Shown: piece by piece, positions 12,952 to 31,660 of the stretch
How positions within the stretch are numbered: position 1 is the stretch's first letter
Layout of the letters: each line of letters starts with the position of its first letter
DNA from: Bacteroidota bacterium
GTDB lineage: Bacteria > Bacteroidota > Ignavibacteria > Kapaibacteriales > UBA961
Assembly (NCBI GenBank): GCA_005788035.1
Contig: SXZI01000047.1
Span: 1-43,837 of the forward strand
Direction: 5' to 3'
DNA: 43,837 nucleotides
Made by a program: the position numbers and the translations under genes
Notes under the pieces: model-generated
Seen by the model: only the letters and a program-made list of their open reading frames with translations
Databases searched by the model: none
What the model was told of the DNA's origin: nothing

Positions 12952-15798
12952 ATGAAACATAGGACTGCAATAACAATGCCAAAAGATATGGACAATACAT
13001 CTCCTTTATATCAAGCCATGAAAAGGCGCTCGGTTTCTTCGGGTTCCAAACGTGAAACTCCGCTGCAATTGTATTTTCAAATCAATGTGGATGAACATGG
13101 TGCATATCTACGCATCATAGATGATAGCAGGCGTGATATTGAGCCGGATCCACGAGGATATTCCGGCCCTGTTCGTGATATTTTACAGTTAATTGATGCC
13201 ATAAAACTCCGAACTGCATTTCAGATTGATTGGGAAAAACCATCGGGAAGATTATATCTGGCAGATAATGAGACAGTATTATGGCAATTGAGAAATTGTC
13301 CAAATGTCGTTGATGCAGCAATGCGTCCAATTCAATTCGCAGATAATGATCAACTTGGGAAAGTAATCATAACAATTCAGGATGCGGAACCTCAACTTGA
13401 AACAACATTCGCGGTGGAATACAATCATGAGATCATCAGCCCCATCATGGCCATCACCGAAACCTGTGTCTATGCTCAAGGAACATTAATTGATATCAAA
13501 TCACTTGGTGGCAAACCTCAATCATTGCGTTTGTTTCAAACATTCGTCTTCCCTCATGAATTGGAAAAATATCTTTCTCTATTGATGAGTACATATCCAG
13601 GTATCAGTATACGATATGACAATTTCATCGTGGAAGAGGGCGAACCCATTACCACTCAGCAATGTGTGTTCATTGAGAAAATCGATGCAGACAATACGCT
13701 ATATCTCCGTATGTCACAATCCATTCCGGAAACCGAACCCACTCTCATCGAAGAATTTGACATTCAACGTTATGTGTCCGTGAATCCGGCAGAGAAGAGA
13801 ATGTTGATTTCTCGAATTCTTGACAAAGATATAGCACCCCTTGTTGAAGGACTTTCAAAGAAATTGTCTCAAATCAAAAAGCTTGCTCGTACTTCTTCCG
13901 ATTTCATCGTGGATGGTACATTATTCATCATTCAAGAAGAATTGGCAAGGGAATTCATCAGAAAAGAATTGGAACATATTGTCCAGAACTTTGTAGTATA
14001 CGGTTCTGAGAATCTCAAGACATATAGAATCAAATCAGTCACTCCAACATTATCAGTTTCTCTCAGCCATGGTATCGATTTTCTCGAAGGAGATGTGGGA
14101 GTTGTGATTGATGAAGAGCACTTTACGGTATTTGATGCATTAGCCATGTTCAAAAACCATGGATATGTTCAATTATCTGATGGAACTCAAGCATTGCCAA
14201 ATGCAGAGTTCATGCGAAAACTTGAACGTATCTTTCATAAGTCCAAAAAGAAGACACGTATTTCATTTTTTGATTTGCCAATCATTGAAGAATTGCTTGA
14301 TGAAAATGCCGCTGAAAAAGCATTCCCTAAAGCTAGATCCATATTCCGCGGCTTCTCAACATATCAAGATCGTGACATACCCATTCCATCTTTAAATACC
14401 GAACTCCGTAATTATCAGGAATTGGGTTTTAAATGGATGCGCTATTTGCATGACAATCGTCTCGGCGGATGTTTGGCAGATGACATGGGATTAGGGAAAA
14501 CCCTTCAGACCATCGCATTGCTTGCTTCATTGTATCCTGGTGAGAAAAAGCAATCACTCATCATCATGCCAAAAAGTTTATTGTTCAATTGGGAACAAGA
14601 AATCAAGAAATTTGCTCCTCAAATCTCAACCTATACATATTATGGTGGAAATAGAGACTGGGACTTGGCTATTAAATCCGATGTGATCCTCACAACATAT
14701 TCAGTATTGAGAAATGATATTGAAGCTTTACGTGAAAAAGAATTTCATATGGTGGTGCTGGATGAATCACAAAATATCAAGAATCTAAATTCTCGAACAG
14801 CGCGATCTGCTCTGCTTCTACGGTCAGAATGTAGATTTGCATTATCCGGCACACCTATTGAAAACAATATCGGCGAGCTCTATGCATTATTTAGATTTTT
14901 GAATCCTTCGATGTTTGGCGGACCGGACGAATTCACAAGAATGTACGCAACACCAATACAAAGAGAGAATAGTAAGGAGATCGCATCGGAACTCAGAAGA
15001 AAGATTTTCCCGTTCATCCTTCGCCGACTAAAAAAAGAAGTTGCAAAAGAATTGCCTGATCGCATTGAACAAACAATCTTTGTTGAAATGTCACCCGAAC
15101 AGATGTCTTATTATGAACAAAGACGCAATTTCTATTATCAAACAATTCGTGAAGAAATTCAGGCAGAAGGTTTGCAGAAATCACAATTCCACATCTTGCA
15201 GGCATTAAGCGATCTTCGTCAAATAGCATCATGTCCGGAAGTAAAAACCGAAGGTACTATCATTTCTCCAAAGCGAGAAGTTCTGATGGAACATGTTGTT
15301 GATGCAGTGGCCAATGGACATAAAATTTTGATATTCTCAAATTACATCGGTGCAGTCTCCACGATTGAAGAAGAACTTACAAAAGAAGGTATCGGTCATG
15401 TTGTTATGACCGGCTCTTCCACGAATAGACAGAGTATCGTTGAAAAATTCCAAAAGGATGATTCAATCAGAGCATTTGTCATGACATTGAAAACCGGTGG
15501 TTTGGGACTTAATCTTACGGCTGCGGACATGATCTTCCTCTATGATCCATGGTGGAATATTGCCGCAGAAAATCAAGCAATTGATAGATCTCATAGAATT
15601 GGTCAAGCGAACACTGTATTGAGTTATAAACTCATCGCTCGCGGATCCATTGAGGAAAAAATTCTCAAACTACAAGATCGTAAACGAGAGTTATTCGATG
15701 CAATCATATCAACGGATGGTGGTTCACTAAAAGCTTTGACTGAGGAAGACATTGAGTACATATTAGGCGATGGAGAGACAAATGATCATACAAGATGA
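12952..15798 (+). CDS. SNF2-family DEAD/DEAH-box ATPase
   Basis: This is a 948-aa bacterial SNF2/Rad54-like double-stranded DNA translocase. The helicase core occupies roughly residues 480-930. Motif I is ADDMGLGKTLQTIA near 508-521, motif II is DESQ at 604-607 in place of the common DEAQ/DEAH, and motif III is SGTPIENNIGELYALFRFLNP. In lobe 2, SNYIGAVSTIEEEL, TGGLGLNLTAADMIFLYDPWWN and QAIDRSHRIGQ are motifs IV-VI. The first 480 residues are beta-rich and unlike known zinc-finger N-termini; no SWIM cysteine cluster is present. The gene overlaps the next one by 17 bp, whose ribosome-binding site lies inside this reading frame, so the two proteins are probably produced together. A chromatin-like remodelling, transcription-recycling or defence role cannot be decided. 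Confidence 0.92.
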   Translation: MKHRTAITMPKDMDNTSPLYQAMKRRSVSSGSKRETPLQLYFQINVDEHGAYLRIIDDSRRDIEPDPRGYSGPVRDILQLIDAIKLRTAFQIDWEKPSGRLYLADNETVLWQLRNCPNVVDAAMRPIQFADNDQLGKVIITIQDAEPQLETTFAVEYNHEIISPIMAITETCVYAQGTLIDIKSLGGKPQSLRLFQTFVFPHELEKYLSLLMSTYPGISIRYDNFIVEEGEPITTQQCVFIEKIDADNTLYLRMSQSIPETEPTLIEEFDIQRYVSVNPAEKRMLISRILDKDIAPLVEGLSKKLSQIKKLARTSSDFIVDGTLFIIQEELAREFIRKELEHIVQNFVVYGSENLKTYRIKSVTPTLSVSLSHGIDFLEGDVGVVIDEEHFTVFDALAMFKNHGYVQLSDGTQALPNAEFMRKLERIFHKSKKKTRISFFDLPIIEELLDENAAEKAFPKARSIFRGFSTYQDRDIPIPSLNTELRNYQELGFKWMRYLHDNRLGGCLADDMGLGKTLQTIALLASLYPGEKKQSLIIMPKSLLFNWEQEIKKFAPQISTYTYYGGNRDWDLAIKSDVILTTYSVLRNDIEALREKEFHMVVLDESQNIKNLNSRTARSALLLRSECRFALSGTPIENNIGELYALFRFLNPSMFGGPDEFTRMYATPIQRENSKEIASELRRKIFPFILRRLKKEVAKELPDRIEQTIFVEMSPEQMSYYEQRRNFYYQTIREEIQAEGLQKSQFHILQALSDLRQIASCPEVKTEGTIISPKREVLMEHVVDAVANGHKILIFSNYIGAVSTIEEELTKEGIGHVVMTGSSTNRQSIVEKFQKDDSIRAFVMTLKTGGLGLNLTAADMIFLYDPWWNIAAENQAIDRSHRIGQANTVLSYKLIARGSIEEKILKLQDRKRELFDAIISTDGGSLKALTEEDIEYILGDGETNDHTR

Positions 15799-17611
15799 TT
15801 TGTCTCCCTTGGTCCAGGATATTTGCGATCATTATAGTCATGCAGAACTTGCAATGGTTTATACAGAATATCTGCGTGGTCAAGTTCTGATCCACTCATC
15901 ACATCCTGCTTTGCAAGATTTCATCGACGGTGCAAAACAAACCGAGACCCCTGAAAAGATTGTGATTGCGATGCTGTATGCTACAATTGTAGTACAAACG
16001 GATCTTGCCGAAGCACTATTGCAATATCTACATAAACCAGTTTATGCCATCTTGGAAACAGTAGTTTGGCGTGGATCTTGCCAAGCTGTTCAATCTTCTT
16101 CAAAAGATCGCGATGAAATAACCACGATTCAATATTCAGAAGATTCAGTCTTGCCATCAATGGCAATCGCAAAACCTGAATATTCATTACTTGCTCTGGA
16201 TGAGCTGACTCCACCACTTCTGCGAAGAGTACAAACATCGAAAGCACCTAAATTCCAAAATGTTTGGTTTACACTGCCGCCATTATTAAAACTTGCTTTC
16301 AGAGAAATAATGGAAGCACCGATTTCAGCTCTTCCATCAACTTCATCAGAACTTCCAAAAGCCCCTAAAGGCGGATGGTGCGTTTATGAATCAGAGCATA
16401 GATTACCCGAAATCATCAAAGATCTGATTCCGAGAATCAGGACCGATTTTTATATCGAAGAATGTTCATCACCAAATTCATTGCAAAGAAAGAAGACAAA
16501 ATCTTTGATTTCGATGTATTCCCTTCCCGAACTATATCCTGATCAACGTGAATTTGACACAATTCAAACCTCCGCTCTCATTTGGTTATTGTTGCATGCA
16601 CCCGATGATACAACCATTGCAACAGGTTCCGGAATAGATGTAACCCGTGCATGTTATGAATTACTTGTGAAGAATACATTACCCATCAAAGACTATCTCC
16701 TGCATTTTCTACATGACAATCATACTAAAAACAATCTGTCATCCATTTGTGCAGGAATCCCCCATTTGCTTGACTTGTTCCCAAAACAAGGGTGGATGAA
16801 TATAGAGTCTTTGATTGACTCACTTATCGTGCATGAACAGCTACCCCCCTTTTATCCCGAATTACCGGCGAAAGAAGAAGCGGCTTATCTAAATCTGTCA
16901 ACCTATGATAAACCCCCGGTAGATCCTCTCACCTATCGTGAGGCAATCTATCCATCATTGATAAGAGGCATATTAGGCCTACTTGGTTCATTGGGAATGC
17001 TTGATTTTCTTGGAAATAAACCAACAAATCATCACTATCAATTGAAAGGCTTCACCTTCCTTTCTCCATGGGACGGCTTGGCATATGCAAGAATCACTGA
17101 ATTGGGTTTGATTTTCCTTGGAAAACAAAGTGAAGATATCATAACAAAGTCCACACAGGAAGAAGATCCATATCTACTCGATCCCGAGCGACTCATGATC
17201 ACAGTACGTGGCACAGCTGCTCATAGGCAATTGGCTCTCACTCAATTTGCTCGTAGAATCAGCGGACAATTTTTCCAAGTAGATTCAACAATATTCACCA
17301 AAGGATGTCACTCTGTACGAGACATCCAACAACGAATACAGCAATTCAAAAGCATCATCAGACAAGACCTTCCTGATAATTGGGAACAATTTTTCGAAAA
17401 TATGATCGACAAAGCAAATGCGCTCATCCCCGAACCTGCAGCGCTAGTGTTCAAATTGAAAGATCAATCCGAATTGGCCCAAATTTTCGCAACAGACCCA
17501 GAGTTAAGACTCATAACCAAAAGAGCAGAAGGGTTCCGCATCATCGTCAATAGATCCGATATCCCGAAACTGAAACAGCGTTTGGGAGAACTCGGTTATT
17601 TTATTGATTAA
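15782..17611 (+). CDS. Unknown 609-aa partner of the SNF2 ATPase, helicase-associated-like C-terminus
   Basis: The ATG at 15782 has a GGAGAGAC ribosome-binding site inside the SNF2 gene, which it overlaps by 17 bp. No characterised domain is certain. The last 175 residues resemble, in order, elements of the XPB/Ssl2-type helicase-associated (Helicase_C_3-like) module: a winged-helix ending YARITELGLIFLGK near 434, the strand LLDPERLMITV, a helix HRQLALTQFARRISG, DIQQRIQQFKSII, and a terminal FATDPELRLITKRAEGF with SDIPKLKQRLGELGYFI. This match is by eye and distant. The N-terminal two thirds is mostly helical and unassigned. The tight coupling argues that it works with the SNF2 motor. There is no signal peptide or membrane segment. 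Confidence 0.75.
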   Translation: MIIQDDLSPLVQDICDHYSHAELAMVYTEYLRGQVLIHSSHPALQDFIDGAKQTETPEKIVIAMLYATIVVQTDLAEALLQYLHKPVYAILETVVWRGSCQAVQSSSKDRDEITTIQYSEDSVLPSMAIAKPEYSLLALDELTPPLLRRVQTSKAPKFQNVWFTLPPLLKLAFREIMEAPISALPSTSSELPKAPKGGWCVYESEHRLPEIIKDLIPRIRTDFYIEECSSPNSLQRKKTKSLISMYSLPELYPDQREFDTIQTSALIWLLLHAPDDTTIATGSGIDVTRACYELLVKNTLPIKDYLLHFLHDNHTKNNLSSICAGIPHLLDLFPKQGWMNIESLIDSLIVHEQLPPFYPELPAKEEAAYLNLSTYDKPPVDPLTYREAIYPSLIRGILGLLGSLGMLDFLGNKPTNHHYQLKGFTFLSPWDGLAYARITELGLIFLGKQSEDIITKSTQEEDPYLLDPERLMITVRGTAAHRQLALTQFARRISGQFFQVDSTIFTKGCHSVRDIQQRIQQFKSIIRQDLPDNWEQFFENMIDKANALIPEPAALVFKLKDQSELAQIFATDPELRLITKRAEGFRIIVNRSDIPKLKQRLGELGYFID

Positions 17612-17640
17612 AAATATTTTTTACTCTATTATAATTTTAT

Positions 17641-17648
17641 TAACTTTG
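17641..17648 (+). promoter_or_regulatory. Candidate promoter of the accessory block
   Basis: TAACTTTG fits the Bacteroidota -7 consensus TAnnTTTG and sits in a very AT-rich gap after the helicase pair, about 100 nt upstream of the preferred start at 17749. Transcription would begin near 17655. The -33 region is T-rich without a clear TTG. Confidence 0.4.
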
Positions 17649-17748
17649 TATCGTTAACACATGATATGAGTTTAAAACAATGCTCATATAGTTCGAAACT
17701 AAGATGAATCAGGGTTCTTTATTACGTTTATTTATTGGGGGTTATTCA

Positions 17749-18639
17749 ATGTCCACAAGATTTTTACATGCACTTGAACAAAGAGGCAATACACATTTTT
17801 CGGCTTTTATTGCTAATCTTTGCCATGATGCCCGAATTGCTTGGTATCCTTCGGCCGGTACTGATTTCAGACCATTGTTTTTTTTGGATGAGACATTTTA
17901 TGCTCAACATCCTTCCGATGGTAAAGCCGATCCGCTACAACCGGATATTTTTTTATATACTGATTATGATCTGATGAGCAAGCCATTTGAGGATGCGCTT
18001 TTTCATCAAGGCAATCCGGTGATTCATGAGGATGGCAGAACAAAAGTCACCCTCATGAACATAGAGCATCTAGGAAGATGTGAGTTTGCTCCCTATTCAG
18101 TGCATCAAGAACATGAAAGAAATAGTCATTATTTCAATCGGATCTTCTTTTTTCAAGTAAAGATTGAAAGCAGATTGGGAACATTTATCAAACCTGTTCT
18201 TTATGCTTTTTGCAATAATGAGCAAATCTGCTCAGAATTATTGATTCCAGTAAGAGCTACTGTGAGTCATGTGATTCATGTAAGGTATGGACATGGGTTT
18301 GGCGGAGCAAATTGTTCCGGACTTTGGATTCAGCATGTATTGCCATTGTTGAATTGCGAAGTGTACATTCACGACAAAATGGCTCATGATTCTGCAGCTG
18401 AACAAGTTGTGATAAGGCATTATGGAAATGTGATTCCTCAAAATCAAATTGCAACATTTGCAACCATTCGAACAATTGATGGGAAATGTTGGTCTGATTC
18501 ACGGAAAATAGTATGGCAATTGGTTGAAAGAGACAAACATGCAAACATTATCTATCATTATAATCGTGAATTAAGAGAACTCAGATTGCGAACTCGAATG
18601 ATAATGAAAAATCAAAGAATGTATAATTTTTTAGTGTAA
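17749..18639 (+). CDS. Unknown protein with WYPSAG-x-DFR motif
   Basis: The product is 296 aa from the ATG at 17749, chosen because GGGGG lies 7 nt upstream; an in-frame ATG at 17704 would add 15 residues without a clear ribosome-binding site. I cannot assign a function. Near the N-terminus are FSAFIANLCHDARIAWYPSA and then GTDFRPLFFL, a motif I associate with uncharacterised bacterial proteins in variable regions. Later, RYGHGFGGANCSGLWIQ forms a glycine-rich conserved-looking stretch. Several tyrosines, histidines and acidic residues could make an active site, but no known catalytic triad is evident. There is no signal peptide. It leads a block of four unknown genes with AT-rich composition. 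Confidence 0.7.
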   Translation: MSTRFLHALEQRGNTHFSAFIANLCHDARIAWYPSAGTDFRPLFFLDETFYAQHPSDGKADPLQPDIFLYTDYDLMSKPFEDALFHQGNPVIHEDGRTKVTLMNIEHLGRCEFAPYSVHQEHERNSHYFNRIFFFQVKIESRLGTFIKPVLYAFCNNEQICSELLIPVRATVSHVIHVRYGHGFGGANCSGLWIQHVLPLLNCEVYIHDKMAHDSAAEQVVIRHYGNVIPQNQIATFATIRTIDGKCWSDSRKIVWQLVERDKHANIIYHYNRELRELRLRTRMIMKNQRMYNFLV

Positions 18640-18644
18640 ATATC

Positions 18645-19301
18645 ATGTCAGGAAAAACGTATAACTCAAAAGAAATATGCGAGATGTTTAATATCTCTGC
18701 ACCTCGATTATTACAATTCAGAAAAGGACAATCAGTAAATGTAAAGACCTCAAAAGAGGGTGCCTTGAGAACATATAAATTCGAAGCACTTCTTGAAGAA
18801 GGACAGGATTGGTATTGGGATGGATCGGAAGTAGTTTTTAGACAATCATCTGTGACCAAATTAAGCAAGCGTAAGATTTACAATAAAAATCGAGATAATA
18901 ATGCTGAGCCAAAAGAAAGAAAAAAGAGGGAAAACAAAAAAGAGAATCTATTAAAGGAAGGTGAATACACTGTGCAAGAAATTGCTGATAGGCTTGATAT
19001 AACCGTCCAAAAGATTTATGCCTTACGTGACATAAGCTCCAACAAACCGGTTTCCTACAAAAATTATCTCATTCAAAATCAAGACTGGAGATATGATGAT
19101 GGAAAAGTGATTCTCCTGCAAACCGCCAAGGAAAAAATTAAAGGGTATATCGAATTATTGAAAGACAGAGAAGAAGTGCCAAAAGCAAAGCGTATCGCAA
19201 TTTTGATTGGTACAAAAGTATTTCATCTTACAGGTGAGGCAGCTTTTAGAGTTATTGATATCATAGAAGATGATCAAGCAAGAAGAAAAGTAAAACAGTA
19301 A
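18645..19301 (+). CDS. Tandem helix-turn-helix DNA-binding protein
   Basis: The 218-aa protein contains two copies of one module. Copy 1 (about 5-70) reads YNSKEICEMFNISAPRLLQF ... GQDWYWDGSEVVFRQ; copy 2 (about 107-165) reads YTVQEIADRLDITVQKIYAL ... NQDWRYDDGKVILLQ. Each begins with a MerR/excisionase-like helix-turn-helix (EI-x7-I-x3-x-[RK]) and ends with a QDW-[YR]-[WY]-D wing. A strongly basic linker (about 80-102, KERKKRENKKEN) joins them, and a helical tail follows. The arrangement suggests binding to a two-part DNA site as a monomer. It starts 5 nt after the previous gene, so the two are probably co-transcribed. The coding sequence is A-rich, which suggests transfer. The regulated genes are unknown. 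Confidence 0.75.
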   Translation: MSGKTYNSKEICEMFNISAPRLLQFRKGQSVNVKTSKEGALRTYKFEALLEEGQDWYWDGSEVVFRQSSVTKLSKRKIYNKNRDNNAEPKERKKRENKKENLLKEGEYTVQEIADRLDITVQKIYALRDISSNKPVSYKNYLIQNQDWRYDDGKVILLQTAKEKIKGYIELLKDREEVPKAKRIAILIGTKVFHLTGEAAFRVIDIIEDDQARRKVKQ

Positions 19302-19331
19302 TACATGTTATAATATTTAGGGGTTTACCTT

Positions 19332-19706
19332 ATGAATTCAAAAGAAGAAGCATTGTTATTCGAACTCGTATCGAGAAGTAATGGATATGGAGATGGCGTG
19401 GCATTATATCCATTTGAAAGCGTATTGAGAGATATGTTCGACAACAAAGTAGATGGCAAGCTTGCTATATACAGTTTGCAGAAGCAAGGAATTATTCAAA
19501 TCAATGAAAAGGCAGGATGGGATGAATTTCGCAAGAGAAGCAGCTTATATCCTGTATATATAGTTACAACAGATGGCTGGGAATATGCACTAAAGGCACG
19601 TGGCGAAGAATTGAAAATCAAAGAGAAGATTGAACAAGAATCACTGGACGACATAGATCTTCCGGATTTTTTGAAAGAAGATGACACGGATGAGCTGGAT
19701 GACTGA
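19332..19706 (+). CDS. Small acidic winged-helix-like protein
   Basis: This is a 124-aa protein of unknown function. The N-terminal KEEALLFELVSRSNGYGDGV, the helix DGKLAIYSLQKQGIIQIN and then VYIVTTDGWEYALKARGEEL follow the helix-helix-wing order of a winged helix, ending in the familiar TxxGxxyA-type strand-to-helix turn. The last 25 residues are very acidic (DDIDLPDFLKEDDTDELDD). Such a tail can mask or mimic DNA, or bind a basic partner; the preceding gene product has a highly basic linker, so an interaction is conceivable but is pure inference. Translation likely uses a GGGG run 8 nt before the ATG, like two neighbours. No signal peptide is seen. Confidence 0.62.
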   Translation: MNSKEEALLFELVSRSNGYGDGVALYPFESVLRDMFDNKVDGKLAIYSLQKQGIIQINEKAGWDEFRKRSSLYPVYIVTTDGWEYALKARGEELKIKEKIEQESLDDIDLPDFLKEDDTDELDD

Positions 19707-19734
19707 TTTTTTTAAGATTGTGTAGGGGGATTAC

Positions 19735-20166
19735 ATGGATTTTGACGACGTGATTGATGTCATAGGGTCATCATTTACTTTTCACATACCTGACACAGAA
19801 GGGTATTCCTATGACATAGGAGATGAAGAGAGAATTCTTGGGGAAAGTGATCCCGAAGCCACAAAAAAGTATGTTGATAATATGGTGCATGCAGACGGAT
19901 ACAGAAACATGATTCCGTCATTCTTAATCTTAAGTGAGAAGTTCACTTCCATTCAGCAAGTGAAGAGAGCTGCTTGTGCCGTTGTTCAATCATGTTATTA
20001 CATTGACTTCGGAGCACATCATATAACATGCGACAAAAAATCAATGACGATACGTTATGTAACTGTCGGAACAGCAATGTTTATAACAGGATCCATTACC
20101 CTTAGCGGTGCTCATTATGAGAAACTGTATCTTGAATATTTAGACTTTTTGGAAGAGAATAAGTAA
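19735..20166 (+). CDS. Unknown 143-aa protein
   Basis: I do not recognise this protein. It starts MDFDDVIDVIGSSFTFHIPD with an acidic N-terminus. A helical middle follows (SEKFTSIQQVKRAACAVVQSCYYIDFGAHHITCD), with closely placed cysteines and the pair HH. The end is beta-rich, RYVTVGTAMFITGSITLSG, with a final helix YEKLYLEYLDFLEENK. There is no signal peptide and no confident membrane segment. GGGGG 5 nt before the ATG is shared in style with the two other genes of this block, so they look like a unit of common origin. It is the last gene before a bidirectional terminator that ends the block. Confidence 0.6.
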   Translation: MDFDDVIDVIGSSFTFHIPDTEGYSYDIGDEERILGESDPEATKKYVDNMVHADGYRNMIPSFLILSEKFTSIQQVKRAACAVVQSCYYIDFGAHHITCDKKSMTIRYVTVGTAMFITGSITLSGAHYEKLYLEYLDFLEENK

Positions 20167-20200
20167 AAAAAGAGGCATTCATATTGAATGCCTCTTTTTT
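20165..20200. terminator. Bidirectional Rho-independent terminator
   Basis: The arms AGAGGCATTCA and TGAATGCCTCT pair perfectly around a tiny TAT loop, with A6 before and T6 after. The symmetry lets it end both the plus-strand unknown block and the convergent minus-strand acyl-CoA dehydrogenase gene, whose stop is at 20202. Confidence 0.92.
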
Positions 20201-20201
20201 A

Positions 20202-21368
20202 TCAATCCATCAATAACTGTCGAGCAATGACCAGTTTTTGCACTTCACTTGTGCCTTCTCCAATCGTCAGCAACTTAACATCACGATAAAACTTTTCAAC
20301 AGGATATTCTTTTATATATCCGTAACCACCATGAATTTGCACTGATTCTTCGGCAGCACGTACCGCAATTTCACTTGCATGTAATTTAGCTTGTGATGCT
20401 GCCAATGTAATACCTTGTCCATTGTCCTTCATCCATGCTGTTTTGTATGTGAGAAGTCTTGCCGCATCGATGTCCATGGCCATCTTCGCCAACTTGAATT
20501 GTATCGCCTGCATGTCTGCCAAGCGCTGATTGAATTGCTTGCGTTCGATAGAATACTTGAGTGATGCATTCAAAGCACCTTGCGCCAATCCCACTGAAAG
20601 AGCGGCAATTGAGATACGGCCTCCATCAAGAATTTGCAATGCCTGAACAAATCCCTCACCTTCATTTCCAATCAAATGTGAAGCCGGAACACGCACATTG
20701 TCAAATGTAAGCGAAGCTGTATCGCTACAACGCATTCCAAGTTTGTTTTCTTTCTTTGATGCATAAAATCCGGGCATGGATTTATCAATCGCAAAAGCTG
20801 AAATGCCACGCTTCCCTTTTGTTTGATCTGTCACTGCCATAATTACCGCTATGTCACCGACATTACCATGCGTGATGAAATTCTTTGAACCATTGATGAT
20901 ATAATGATCGCCATCTTTAACTGCAGTCGTGCGGGTTCCACCAGCATCACTTCCTGCACTAGGTTCAGTCAATCCCCATGCACCCAATGTTTCACCGGTT
21001 GCCAAACGAGGAATATATTTTTGCTTGACATCTTCAGTTGCAAATTTCAGGATGTGATTTGTGCACAATCCATTGTGAGCGGCAACTCCTAATGCCATTG
21101 CTGGACATACGCGTGCAATCTCTTCAACGATTACGGAATATTCCTGATATCCCAATCCACTTCCACCATATTCATGCGGTACAAGTATCCCAAGAAAACC
21201 GAGCTCACCAAGTTTATTGAAAATTTCATGGGGGAATTCTTGCGTTTCGTCAAAATGTAGAACATGAGGTGCTATTTCATTATCCGCAAATGAAGCTGCA
21301 ACATCTTTGATTGCACGGACTTCTTCCGAAAGGTGAAAATTGAGTGAAGAAGTTTCTGTATGTGACAT
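20202..21368 (-). CDS. Acyl-CoA dehydrogenase
   Basis: This is a 388-aa FAD-dependent acyl-CoA dehydrogenase of the short-chain/general type, catalysing alpha-beta desaturation of acyl-CoA in fatty acid or amino acid breakdown. The signatures are WGLTEPSAGSDAGGTRTTA (flavin/substrate), GSKNFITHG, the subunit-contact FNQRLADMQAIQFKLAKM, QIHGGYGYIKEYPVEKFYRD and the catalytic glutamate in IGEGTSEVQKLVIARQL, placed as in butyryl-CoA dehydrogenases. Length and domain order are normal, and the chain-length preference cannot be read. It has its own candidate promoter (TAATTTTG at 21403-21410) and a shared terminator downstream. No thiolase, hydratase or ETF genes lie nearby. Confidence 0.95.
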   Translation of the reverse strand: MSHTETSSLNFHLSEEVRAIKDVAASFADNEIAPHVLHFDETQEFPHEIFNKLGELGFLGILVPHEYGGSGLGYQEYSVIVEEIARVCPAMALGVAAHNGLCTNHILKFATEDVKQKYIPRLATGETLGAWGLTEPSAGSDAGGTRTTAVKDGDHYIINGSKNFITHGNVGDIAVIMAVTDQTKGKRGISAFAIDKSMPGFYASKKENKLGMRCSDTASLTFDNVRVPASHLIGNEGEGFVQALQILDGGRISIAALSVGLAQGALNASLKYSIERKQFNQRLADMQAIQFKLAKMAMDIDAARLLTYKTAWMKDNGQGITLAASQAKLHASEIAVRAAEESVQIHGGYGYIKEYPVEKFYRDVKLLTIGEGTSEVQKLVIARQLLMD

Positions 21369-30949: not shown

Positions 30950-31660
30950 ATGAAGATTCTTGTAATTGAAGATGAAAAGAAAATGGCTCTCTTCATAAAG
31001 AGAGGGTTGGAGGAAGAGCGATATATTGTTGAAACCGCTTTTGATGGCCAGACCGGACTGGAAATGGCTCTTCACAATCAATATGATGCCGTCGTCTTAG
31101 ATGTTATGCTTCCAAAAAGAAATGGCCTTGCGGTATTGAGCGCAATGCGAGCCGCAGGAAATGCAACTCCTGTTCTTATGCTTACAGCCAGAGGCAATAC
31201 AGAAGACAGAGTTGCAGGATTGGATCTCGGTGCCGATGATTATATGCCCAAACCTTTTCACTTCGAAGAGTTGGCCGCAAGACTCCGTTCCATCATGCGT
31301 AGATCAAGTCCGGAAAAGTCAACCAAAATGCAATGCATGGATCTAACCCTTGACACAGTGGCGCATGTAGCATTCAGATGGGGTAAAGAAATTGAACTCA
31401 CAACAAAAGAATATGCTCTGCTAGAATATTTAATGCGAAACAAAAATCGCATCATTTCACGAAGCATGATCACACAGCATGTATGGAAACATAATTTTGA
31501 TCCCGAATCAAATATCATCGATGTGTATATCAAAAGAATTCGATCAAAAATTGAAAGACCGGGATCCCCGCGGATTCTTCAGAGCATTAGAGGTGTGGGA
31601 TATCGAATGAGAGAAACCGAACAGCCGGAATTGGATGATCAAGACGAATCATTTGAGTGA
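30950..31660 (+). CDS. OmpR-family response regulator
   Basis: A 236-aa two-domain regulator. The receiver has the acidic pocket E7-D8, the phospho-acceptor D51 in VVLDVMLPKRNGL, T79 and K101 in DYMPKPF. The C-terminal winged helix is of OmpR/PhoB type, with LTTKEYALLEYLMRNKN, the transactivation loop and the recognition helix NIIDVYIKRIRSKIERPG, closing on ILQSIRGVGYRM. No histidine kinase follows; instead the Lon-domain gene is convergent and overlaps its end by 12 bp. In most genomes regulators of this ArlR/CusR-like type are paired with a kinase, so it is orphan here. The target genes are unknown. Confidence 0.93.
   Translation: MKILVIEDEKKMALFIKRGLEEERYIVETAFDGQTGLEMALHNQYDAVVLDVMLPKRNGLAVLSAMRAAGNATPVLMLTARGNTEDRVAGLDLGADDYMPKPFHFEELAARLRSIMRRSSPEKSTKMQCMDLTLDTVAHVAFRWGKEIELTTKEYALLEYLMRNKNRIISRSMITQHVWKHNFDPESNIIDVYIKRIRSKIERPGSPRILQSIRGVGYRMRETEQPELDDQDESFE

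Follow-up and report, generated by a model that had tools for sequence, protein, structure and literature searches.

A putative exchangeable four-gene cassette with a DUF7663 protein at a fixed chromosomal site in Kapabacteria

Background

Chromosomal hotspots have been described in which gene cassettes turn over without the help of mobile elements, by recombination in the core genes on either side (Oliveira et al. 2017, PMC5635113). The present study deals with a block of four genes from a Bacteroidota bacterium of the order Kapaibacteriales (assembly GCA_005788035.1, contig SXZI01000047.1), which lies in a stretch of 43,837 nt that was analysed as a whole and is called the window in the following. 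The block resembles the described hotspots in its fixed slot, its presence or absence in different genomes, the signs of allele replacement and the lack of an integrase. It differs from them insofar as a single cassette type was found in the slot, with seven genomes sampled.

On the protein level, the closest described family is Pfam DUF7663 (PF24699). The product of the first gene exceeds the curated cut-off and is a member, although the family itself has no assigned function and is not named by any paper in the literature searched. The nearest folds are those of class I S-adenosylmethionine (SAM) methyltransferases, namely the rRNA methyltransferase 3c0k, the methyltransferase 3vse and MnmC (3awi). 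Judging from the structure model and the alignment, gene 1 would share with these enzymes the order of strands and helices, the antiparallel hairpin at the end and an invariant aspartate (D72) after the second strand, but it differs from them by a YPSAGxD motif in place of the glycine-rich motif I, by an unusual SHxxxxRxGxGxGG loop and by a sequence identity of just 4-13%. Among the known anti-phage systems, the product of the second gene matches the 60-position mad1 model of MADS (E 2e-5) through its helix-turn-helix (HTH). However, no further MADS component was matched by the six scanned proteins, and a lone HTH match says little.

Results

The first-pass annotation of the window, made from the sequence alone, had pointed out four adjacent plus-strand genes, and the block indeed consists of four plus-strand open reading frames (ORFs) of 296, 218, 124 and 143 aa with intergenic gaps of 5, 30 and 28 nt, each of which is conserved in related species. 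Its slot is a fixed chromosomal site between an SNF2 operon and a convergent acyl-CoA dehydrogenase-like gene, the latter being kept in the five genomes with common synteny. The genes and their flanks are:

12952..17611, plus strand: SNF2 gene and gene of its 613-aa partner; upstream flank, conserved in the genus and outside the cassette
17749..18639, plus strand: gene 1, 296 aa, DUF7663 family; modelled fold like that of class I SAM methyltransferases
18645..19301, plus strand: gene 2, 218 aa, two related HTH-like halves
19332..19706, plus strand: gene 3, orphan of 124 aa; winged helix probable by eye, tail SLDDIDLPDFL invariant
19735..20166, plus strand: gene 4, 143 aa, orphan
20202..21368, minus strand: acyl-CoA dehydrogenase-like gene; convergent downstream flank, assigned by reading the sequence, without a family scan

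The genus sample comprised seven congeneric genomes (G000 to G006, G000 being the genome of the window). All four genes are present in the same order and with the same neighbours in G000, G002, G003 and G005, gene 1 of G003 being divided between two contigs. None of the four genes was found anywhere in G001, G004 and G006 by whole-genome searches with each protein. G001 and G004 are more distant members of the genus, in which also the genes downstream of the SNF2 operon differ. The window genome has its closest relative in G006, with 84-98% protein identity in the neighbouring genes and 91% DNA identity in the flanks.

The alignment of G006 with the window ends at position 17788 and restarts at 20166, and the spacer between the SNF2 operon and the dehydrogenase-like gene measures 204 nt in G006 compared to 2590 nt in G000. 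The G006 spacer holds the leader together with the beginning of gene 1, from the start codon as far as codon 13 (37 of the gene's first 40 nt are identical to the window), and then leads straight into the terminator, which is retained. The junction is the 9-mer AAAGAGGCA, which occurs twice in the window:

17780..17788, plus strand: left 9-bp direct repeat AAAGAGGCA, gene 1 codons 11-13; left breakpoint of the G006 deletion
20169..20177, no strand assigned: right-hand copy of the 9-bp direct repeat AAAGAGGCA, within the terminator's left arm; right breakpoint of the deletion in G006

The simplest reading is that G006 has lost the block by a deletion between the two 9-bp direct repeats. Since 13 codons of gene 1 remain fused to the terminator, the block was present before the split of G000 and G006 and was deleted in the latter. 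Such a loss is different from the departure of a bounded mobile element, and neither an integrase or transposase, nor structural genes or terminal repeats were detected among the four block genes or in their immediate flanks.

The first-pass annotation had proposed to look for the presence or absence of exactly this block in relatives and had named conservation in all relatives, or scattered and unlinked genes, as findings that would speak against it. The block turned out to be missing from G001, G004 and, with a scar, from G006, and it occurs as a unit in four of the seven genomes. The four genes form one real accessory unit with sharp borders that is ancestral in the clade.

A second line of evidence comes from G002 and G003, which are sister species. 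Over the 28-kb stretch that they have in common, 19 comparisons of flanking ORFs give proportions of synonymous differences (pS) from 0.17 to 0.33; as one ORF is split in G002, two of these comparisons concern a single gene. The corresponding values for genes 2, 3 and 4 are 0.79, 0.76 and 0.51. In sliding windows, the identity is 85-95% as far as the upstream gene extends, drops to 62-80% from the leader through gene 4 and is 90-95% beyond, so that the jump in divergence is confined to the cassette, with its edges at the start of the leader and at the start of the dehydrogenase-like gene, where the identity returns to 92-95%. Because the synonymous divergence is so deep, relaxed selection on the proteins is not the expected cause. 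The pattern rather suggests that either one allele has been replaced in place or that the alleles are much older than the species. In protein tree tests of the flanks, the grouping of G002 with G003 is fixed and the alternatives are rejected. The nucleotide site patterns of genes 2 and 3 favour a grouping of G003 with G005 (40 versus 17 versus 16 sites). We claim neither a donor nor a direction of transfer among G002, G003 and G005, since the species topology is not excluded by the protein tree tests.

Two observations concern the assemblies of these genomes. The two G003 contigs that split gene 1 (C21 and C13) overlap by exactly 127 nt (L035:1-127 and L034:1-127). This fits a k-mer branch of the assembly graph and may, although it is only suggestive, point to more than one block allele in the G003 sample. 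The G002 ortholog of the response regulator gene at window positions 30950-31660 appears as two overlapping ORFs (L062:4639-5369), due to a frameshift or an assembly error.

In regard to composition, the first-pass annotation had called the block A-rich compared to its neighbours. With 28 window genes as reference, this applies to gene 2 (41.6% A) and gene 3 (37.1%, versus 31.3 +/- 2.2%), whereas genes 1 and 4 are ordinary; the G+C content is low in all four (34.7-38.4% versus 41.1 +/- 1.8%). The codon adaptation check that had been suggested did not reveal an alien block. The codon indices of genes 1 to 4 are 0.729, 0.692, 0.670 and 0.636 and those of the core 0.70 +/- 0.025 (range 0.648-0.750), so that usage is host-like in three genes, while gene 4 falls slightly below the spread. 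We therefore rejected alien codon usage as a characteristic of the block. The ratio of non-synonymous to synonymous substitution rates (dN/dS) is 0.13-0.25 for the block genes in every pair with unsaturated dS, which indicates purifying selection.

The block also carries candidate control signals:

17641..17648, plus strand: putative -7 promoter element TAACTTTG of the Bacteroidota type TAnnTTTG
17667..17689, plus strand: hairpin or operator-like inverted repeat (ATATGAG...CTCATAT) in the leader, predicted in G000
17737..17741, plus strand: GGGGG box before gene 1; G-rich boxes also in relatives
19320..19323, plus strand: GGGG box before gene 3; G-rich boxes also in relatives
19725..19729, plus strand: GGGGG box before gene 4; G-rich boxes also in relatives
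20166..20200, no strand assigned: bidirectional terminator formed by a perfect inverted repeat (16 bp, loop of 3 nt) that has A/T tails

A promoter of its own, as had been assumed for the block, is plausible and predicted from the -7 element: the consensus TAnnTTTG (PMC6847099) is matched exactly in the leaders of G000 (TAACTTTG), G005 and G002 (TACTTTTG), but only nearly in those of G003 and G006. G005 (CCGATAT/ATATCGG) and G006 (GAGTAT/ATACTC) have predicted hairpins of different sequence in roughly this position, and G002 and G003 have weaker ones. A search in Rfam gave no match to a known RNA element. The strong symmetrical terminator reported at the end of the block was verified and can serve both converging transcripts, that of the block and that of its neighbour.

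The G-rich boxes are a peculiarity of the block. GGGG occurs at most 20 nt upstream of three of the four block genes (1, 3 and 4) and of none of the 24 other window genes (Fisher p 0.001, a value that flatters the association because the motif was spotted ahead of testing). Members of the phylum have been reported to lack Shine-Dalgarno sequences (PMC6847099), and the boxes may therefore be unusual translation initiation signals. The stretches 17737-17751, 19320-19334 and 19725-19737 place the boxes at a similar distance to genes 1, 3 and 4. In the whole own genome, the extended form GGGGKTTA precedes a real ORF only at the two block sites before genes 1 and 3. A regulon defined by this box was considered and dismissed, since the eight other matches in the genome precede just chance ORFs of 2-37 codons.

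The four genes had been described as having no assignable function. Gene 1 does belong to a family, DUF7663 (E 3.4e-38, 131.9 bits versus a curated cut-off of 27, model positions 8-208 of 225); no family was found for genes 3 and 4. An AlphaFold2 model of gene 1, built with ten family members, reached a predicted local distance difference test (pLDDT) score of 80 and a predicted template modelling (TM) score of 0.82. The best solved structures found with Foldseek are MnmC methyltransferase domains (E 0.006-0.008), and in VIA-align nearly all of the 50 matches listed are class I methyltransferases or spermidine synthases by title, with Z scores of 4.9-7.4, a range that the tool itself grades as middling. 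As read from the model, the order of the strands and the antiparallel hairpin at the end fit the class I methyltransferase fold as well, and gene 1 is modelled as a protein with a class I methyltransferase-like fold. The canonical SAM-binding motif I (GxGxG) is replaced by YPSAGxD in gene 1, an alignment of ten family members having YPS(A)xxD at this place, and the SHxxxxRxGxGxGG loop is conserved. Protein-tyrosine phosphatases appeared in the Foldseek list with low TM-scores, but not among the VIA-align matches shown, and were discarded as a candidate. The viral structure library contained no match to the model at E 0.001, and searches of the PDB sequences with profiles of genes 1-4 yielded nothing significant.

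Two of the products had been proposed to possess DNA-binding folds. This can be substantiated to some degree for gene 2, as HTH_17 is detected in all four orthologs, albeit under Pfam's own curated cut-off, and the second half of the protein is related to the first (hhalign E 2e-5). Gene 2 can thus be regarded as a predicted double HTH-like protein. For gene 3 a winged helix is probable from the alignment by eye only, and neither a family nor a profile match was obtained. Gene 3 is conserved in four genomes, with the tail SLDDIDLPDFL invariant as read from the alignment. Gene 4 is conserved in the same number of genomes (38-41% identity to G000), matches no family, and its structure model (pLDDT 48) is too poor for a structure search.

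DUF7663 is a rare family. Of 395 genomes from across the phylum, 6 contained it, as did 6 of 341 in the class and 3 of 98 in the class to which G415 belongs. A first search of genome contigs with gene 1 alone had given no match. Outside the genus, DUF7663 is found without genes 2-4. Genes 3 and 4 are confined to the genus among 149 class genomes, and the only match of gene 2 beyond the genus, among 20 relatives, is a weak one of 70 residues. In G415, and apparently also in the closely related G353, the neighbourhood of DUF7663 includes Vsr, an EcoRII-type endonuclease and a cytosine methyltransferase; in G508 it includes an N4/N6 methyltransferase. In G562, a cluster of HerA, NurA and DruA (DUF4338), with two unassigned genes in between, adjoins DUF7663 (L060:9773-15341) and is a candidate defence locus. 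In G324, a reading frame of 117 aa directly after DUF7663 (L052:5894-7032) matches only the last part of Cas1, being either a truncated gene or an assembly join.

The recommended search for defence and phage relatives brought no convincing PADLOC family. The block matches the core families of none of the known anti-phage systems in PADLOC-DB and is not filed as a member of any of them. No homolog of genes 1, 2 or 4 was found in phages or plasmids where searched, and the viral contigs scanned contained no relative of any of the four genes.

As to the upstream flank, described earlier as a helicase pair, the 948-aa protein is an SNF2 protein, but its 613-aa partner, whose gene is overlapped by the SNF2 gene, matched no family above the cut-off in a profile scan. 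The partner is present in all seven genus genomes with the SNF2 gene adjoining in every one, compared to four for the block. Among the five nearer congeners, the SNF2 protein is 89-98% identical and the partner 64-94%. Beyond the genus, only partial matches to the partner were found, in a single genome (G020).

Discussion

We consider it very probable that the block behaves as an exchangeable accessory operon. The scar in G006, the absence from G001 and G004, the allele divergence between G002 and G003 and the restriction of genes 2-4 to the genus all bear out the idea of an accessory block expressed in the first-pass annotation. Loss and exchange at one spot are typical of dispensable, exchangeable cassettes, for example of phage-defence genes. 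Because no integrase, transposase or terminal repeat is seen, we infer that congeners would swap block alleles through ordinary homologous recombination, the conserved flanks being the regions that recombine. Within such a cassette, the methyltransferase-fold DUF7663 protein might act on DNA, RNA or a nucleotide, the double-HTH protein of gene 2, with or without gene 3, could control expression or recognise DNA, and gene 4 may be an accessory or partner.

What such a cassette does for the cell is far less certain. Our best overall explanation, an accessory cassette that serves as a defence module, is put forward tentatively, and an anti-phage or anti-mobile-DNA function taken by itself is a possibility to which we lean without being persuaded, as the evidence for it is circumstantial. 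Defence is nevertheless the likeliest function, followed by that of an ordinary regulated enzyme operon. The more specific proposal of a new defence system of Kapabacteria, in which a DUF7663 methyltransferase-like effector, a double-HTH protein and two orphan partners form a swappable cassette, is more doubtful still. Several results weigh against the reading as an exchanged defence module. Four of the six independent DUF7663 neighbourhoods contain apparent defence genes, but this count stands without a background rate and is a lead and not a test, and the other two (G019 and G611) show no obvious defence gene. In the PADLOC scan, genes 1, 3 and 4 were not significant (0.01 or worse), and the mad1 match of gene 2 (2e-5) covers the HTH only. 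The fold of gene 1 is deduced from Z scores below 8 and Foldseek E-values above 0.006, with the usual GxGxG motif replaced by YPSAGxD. Concerning the exchange itself, the approximately unbiased test leaves the species topology standing for the block (p-AU 0.91), so the tree topology is no proof of a transfer; the case for a transfer therefore comes down to the depth of divergence, and old balanced alleles could yield the same depth.

The strongest competitor is a dispensable regulatory or RNA- or metabolite-modifying operon, made up of a methyltransferase-like enzyme and its own HTH regulators, which is under fluctuating selection and is lost or swapped like other accessory loci. We regard it as plausible, with somewhat less credence than a role in defence. 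Two HTH- or winged-helix-like proteins together with an enzyme-like fold would suit a small regulated operon, three of the block genes have codon usage inside the host spread, and the closest Foldseek match of gene 1 is the tRNA-modifying MnmC; yet the combination of allele replacement, presence or absence and the restriction and HerA neighbourhoods of DUF7663 is, circumstantially, more typical of defence. It is improbable that gene 4 or gene 3 serves as the antidote in a toxin-antitoxin or toxin-immunity pair within the block. Such a pair would agree with the small size and fast evolution of genes 3 and 4, which stand next to larger genes, with the resemblance of the gene 2 HTH to an autoregulator and with the genus-restricted distribution, but Pfam, NCBIfam and PADLOC reported no toxin or antitoxin family and the block was lost as a whole, including the putative antidote, while the model of gene 4 is too poor to judge.

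That the block is left over from a prophage, plasmid or transposable element, as the low G+C content and the G-rich boxes, not shared by other window genes, might suggest, is very unlikely in view of the purifying selection, the same slot in four species and the G006 junction, which reflects a direct-repeat deletion and not the excision of a bounded element; moreover, genes 1, 2 and 4 have no phage or plasmid homolog where searched, and none of the four has a relative on the viral contigs. The least likely explanation, with hardly any chance of being correct in our opinion, is a variable module that acts together with the adjacent SNF2 protein. The block does adjoin the SNF2 operon on the same strand, with possible read-through, but it carries its own promoter-like element, and G001, G004 and G006 keep the conserved SNF2 operon without the block. 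The partnership suggested in the first-pass annotation is consequently not supported, and we rejected it. In the DUF7663 neighbourhoods outside the genus, no SNF2 gene was recognised as far as they were read by eye and with selected scans only.

Conclusions

The cassette is a candidate system whose borders are marked in nature itself, once by a deletion and once by a jump in the divergence of its alleles. It illustrates how a cassette can turn over, with no mobile elements visible, in a lineage that is uncultured. Should the block prove to be an ordinary regulated enzyme operon, its interest would be chiefly evolutionary. If the reading as a defence module is true, DUF7663 would be a new defence effector family, which is also located near restriction and HerA-NurA-DruA genes in the phylum. 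DUF7663 can be flagged as a possible defence-associated enzyme.

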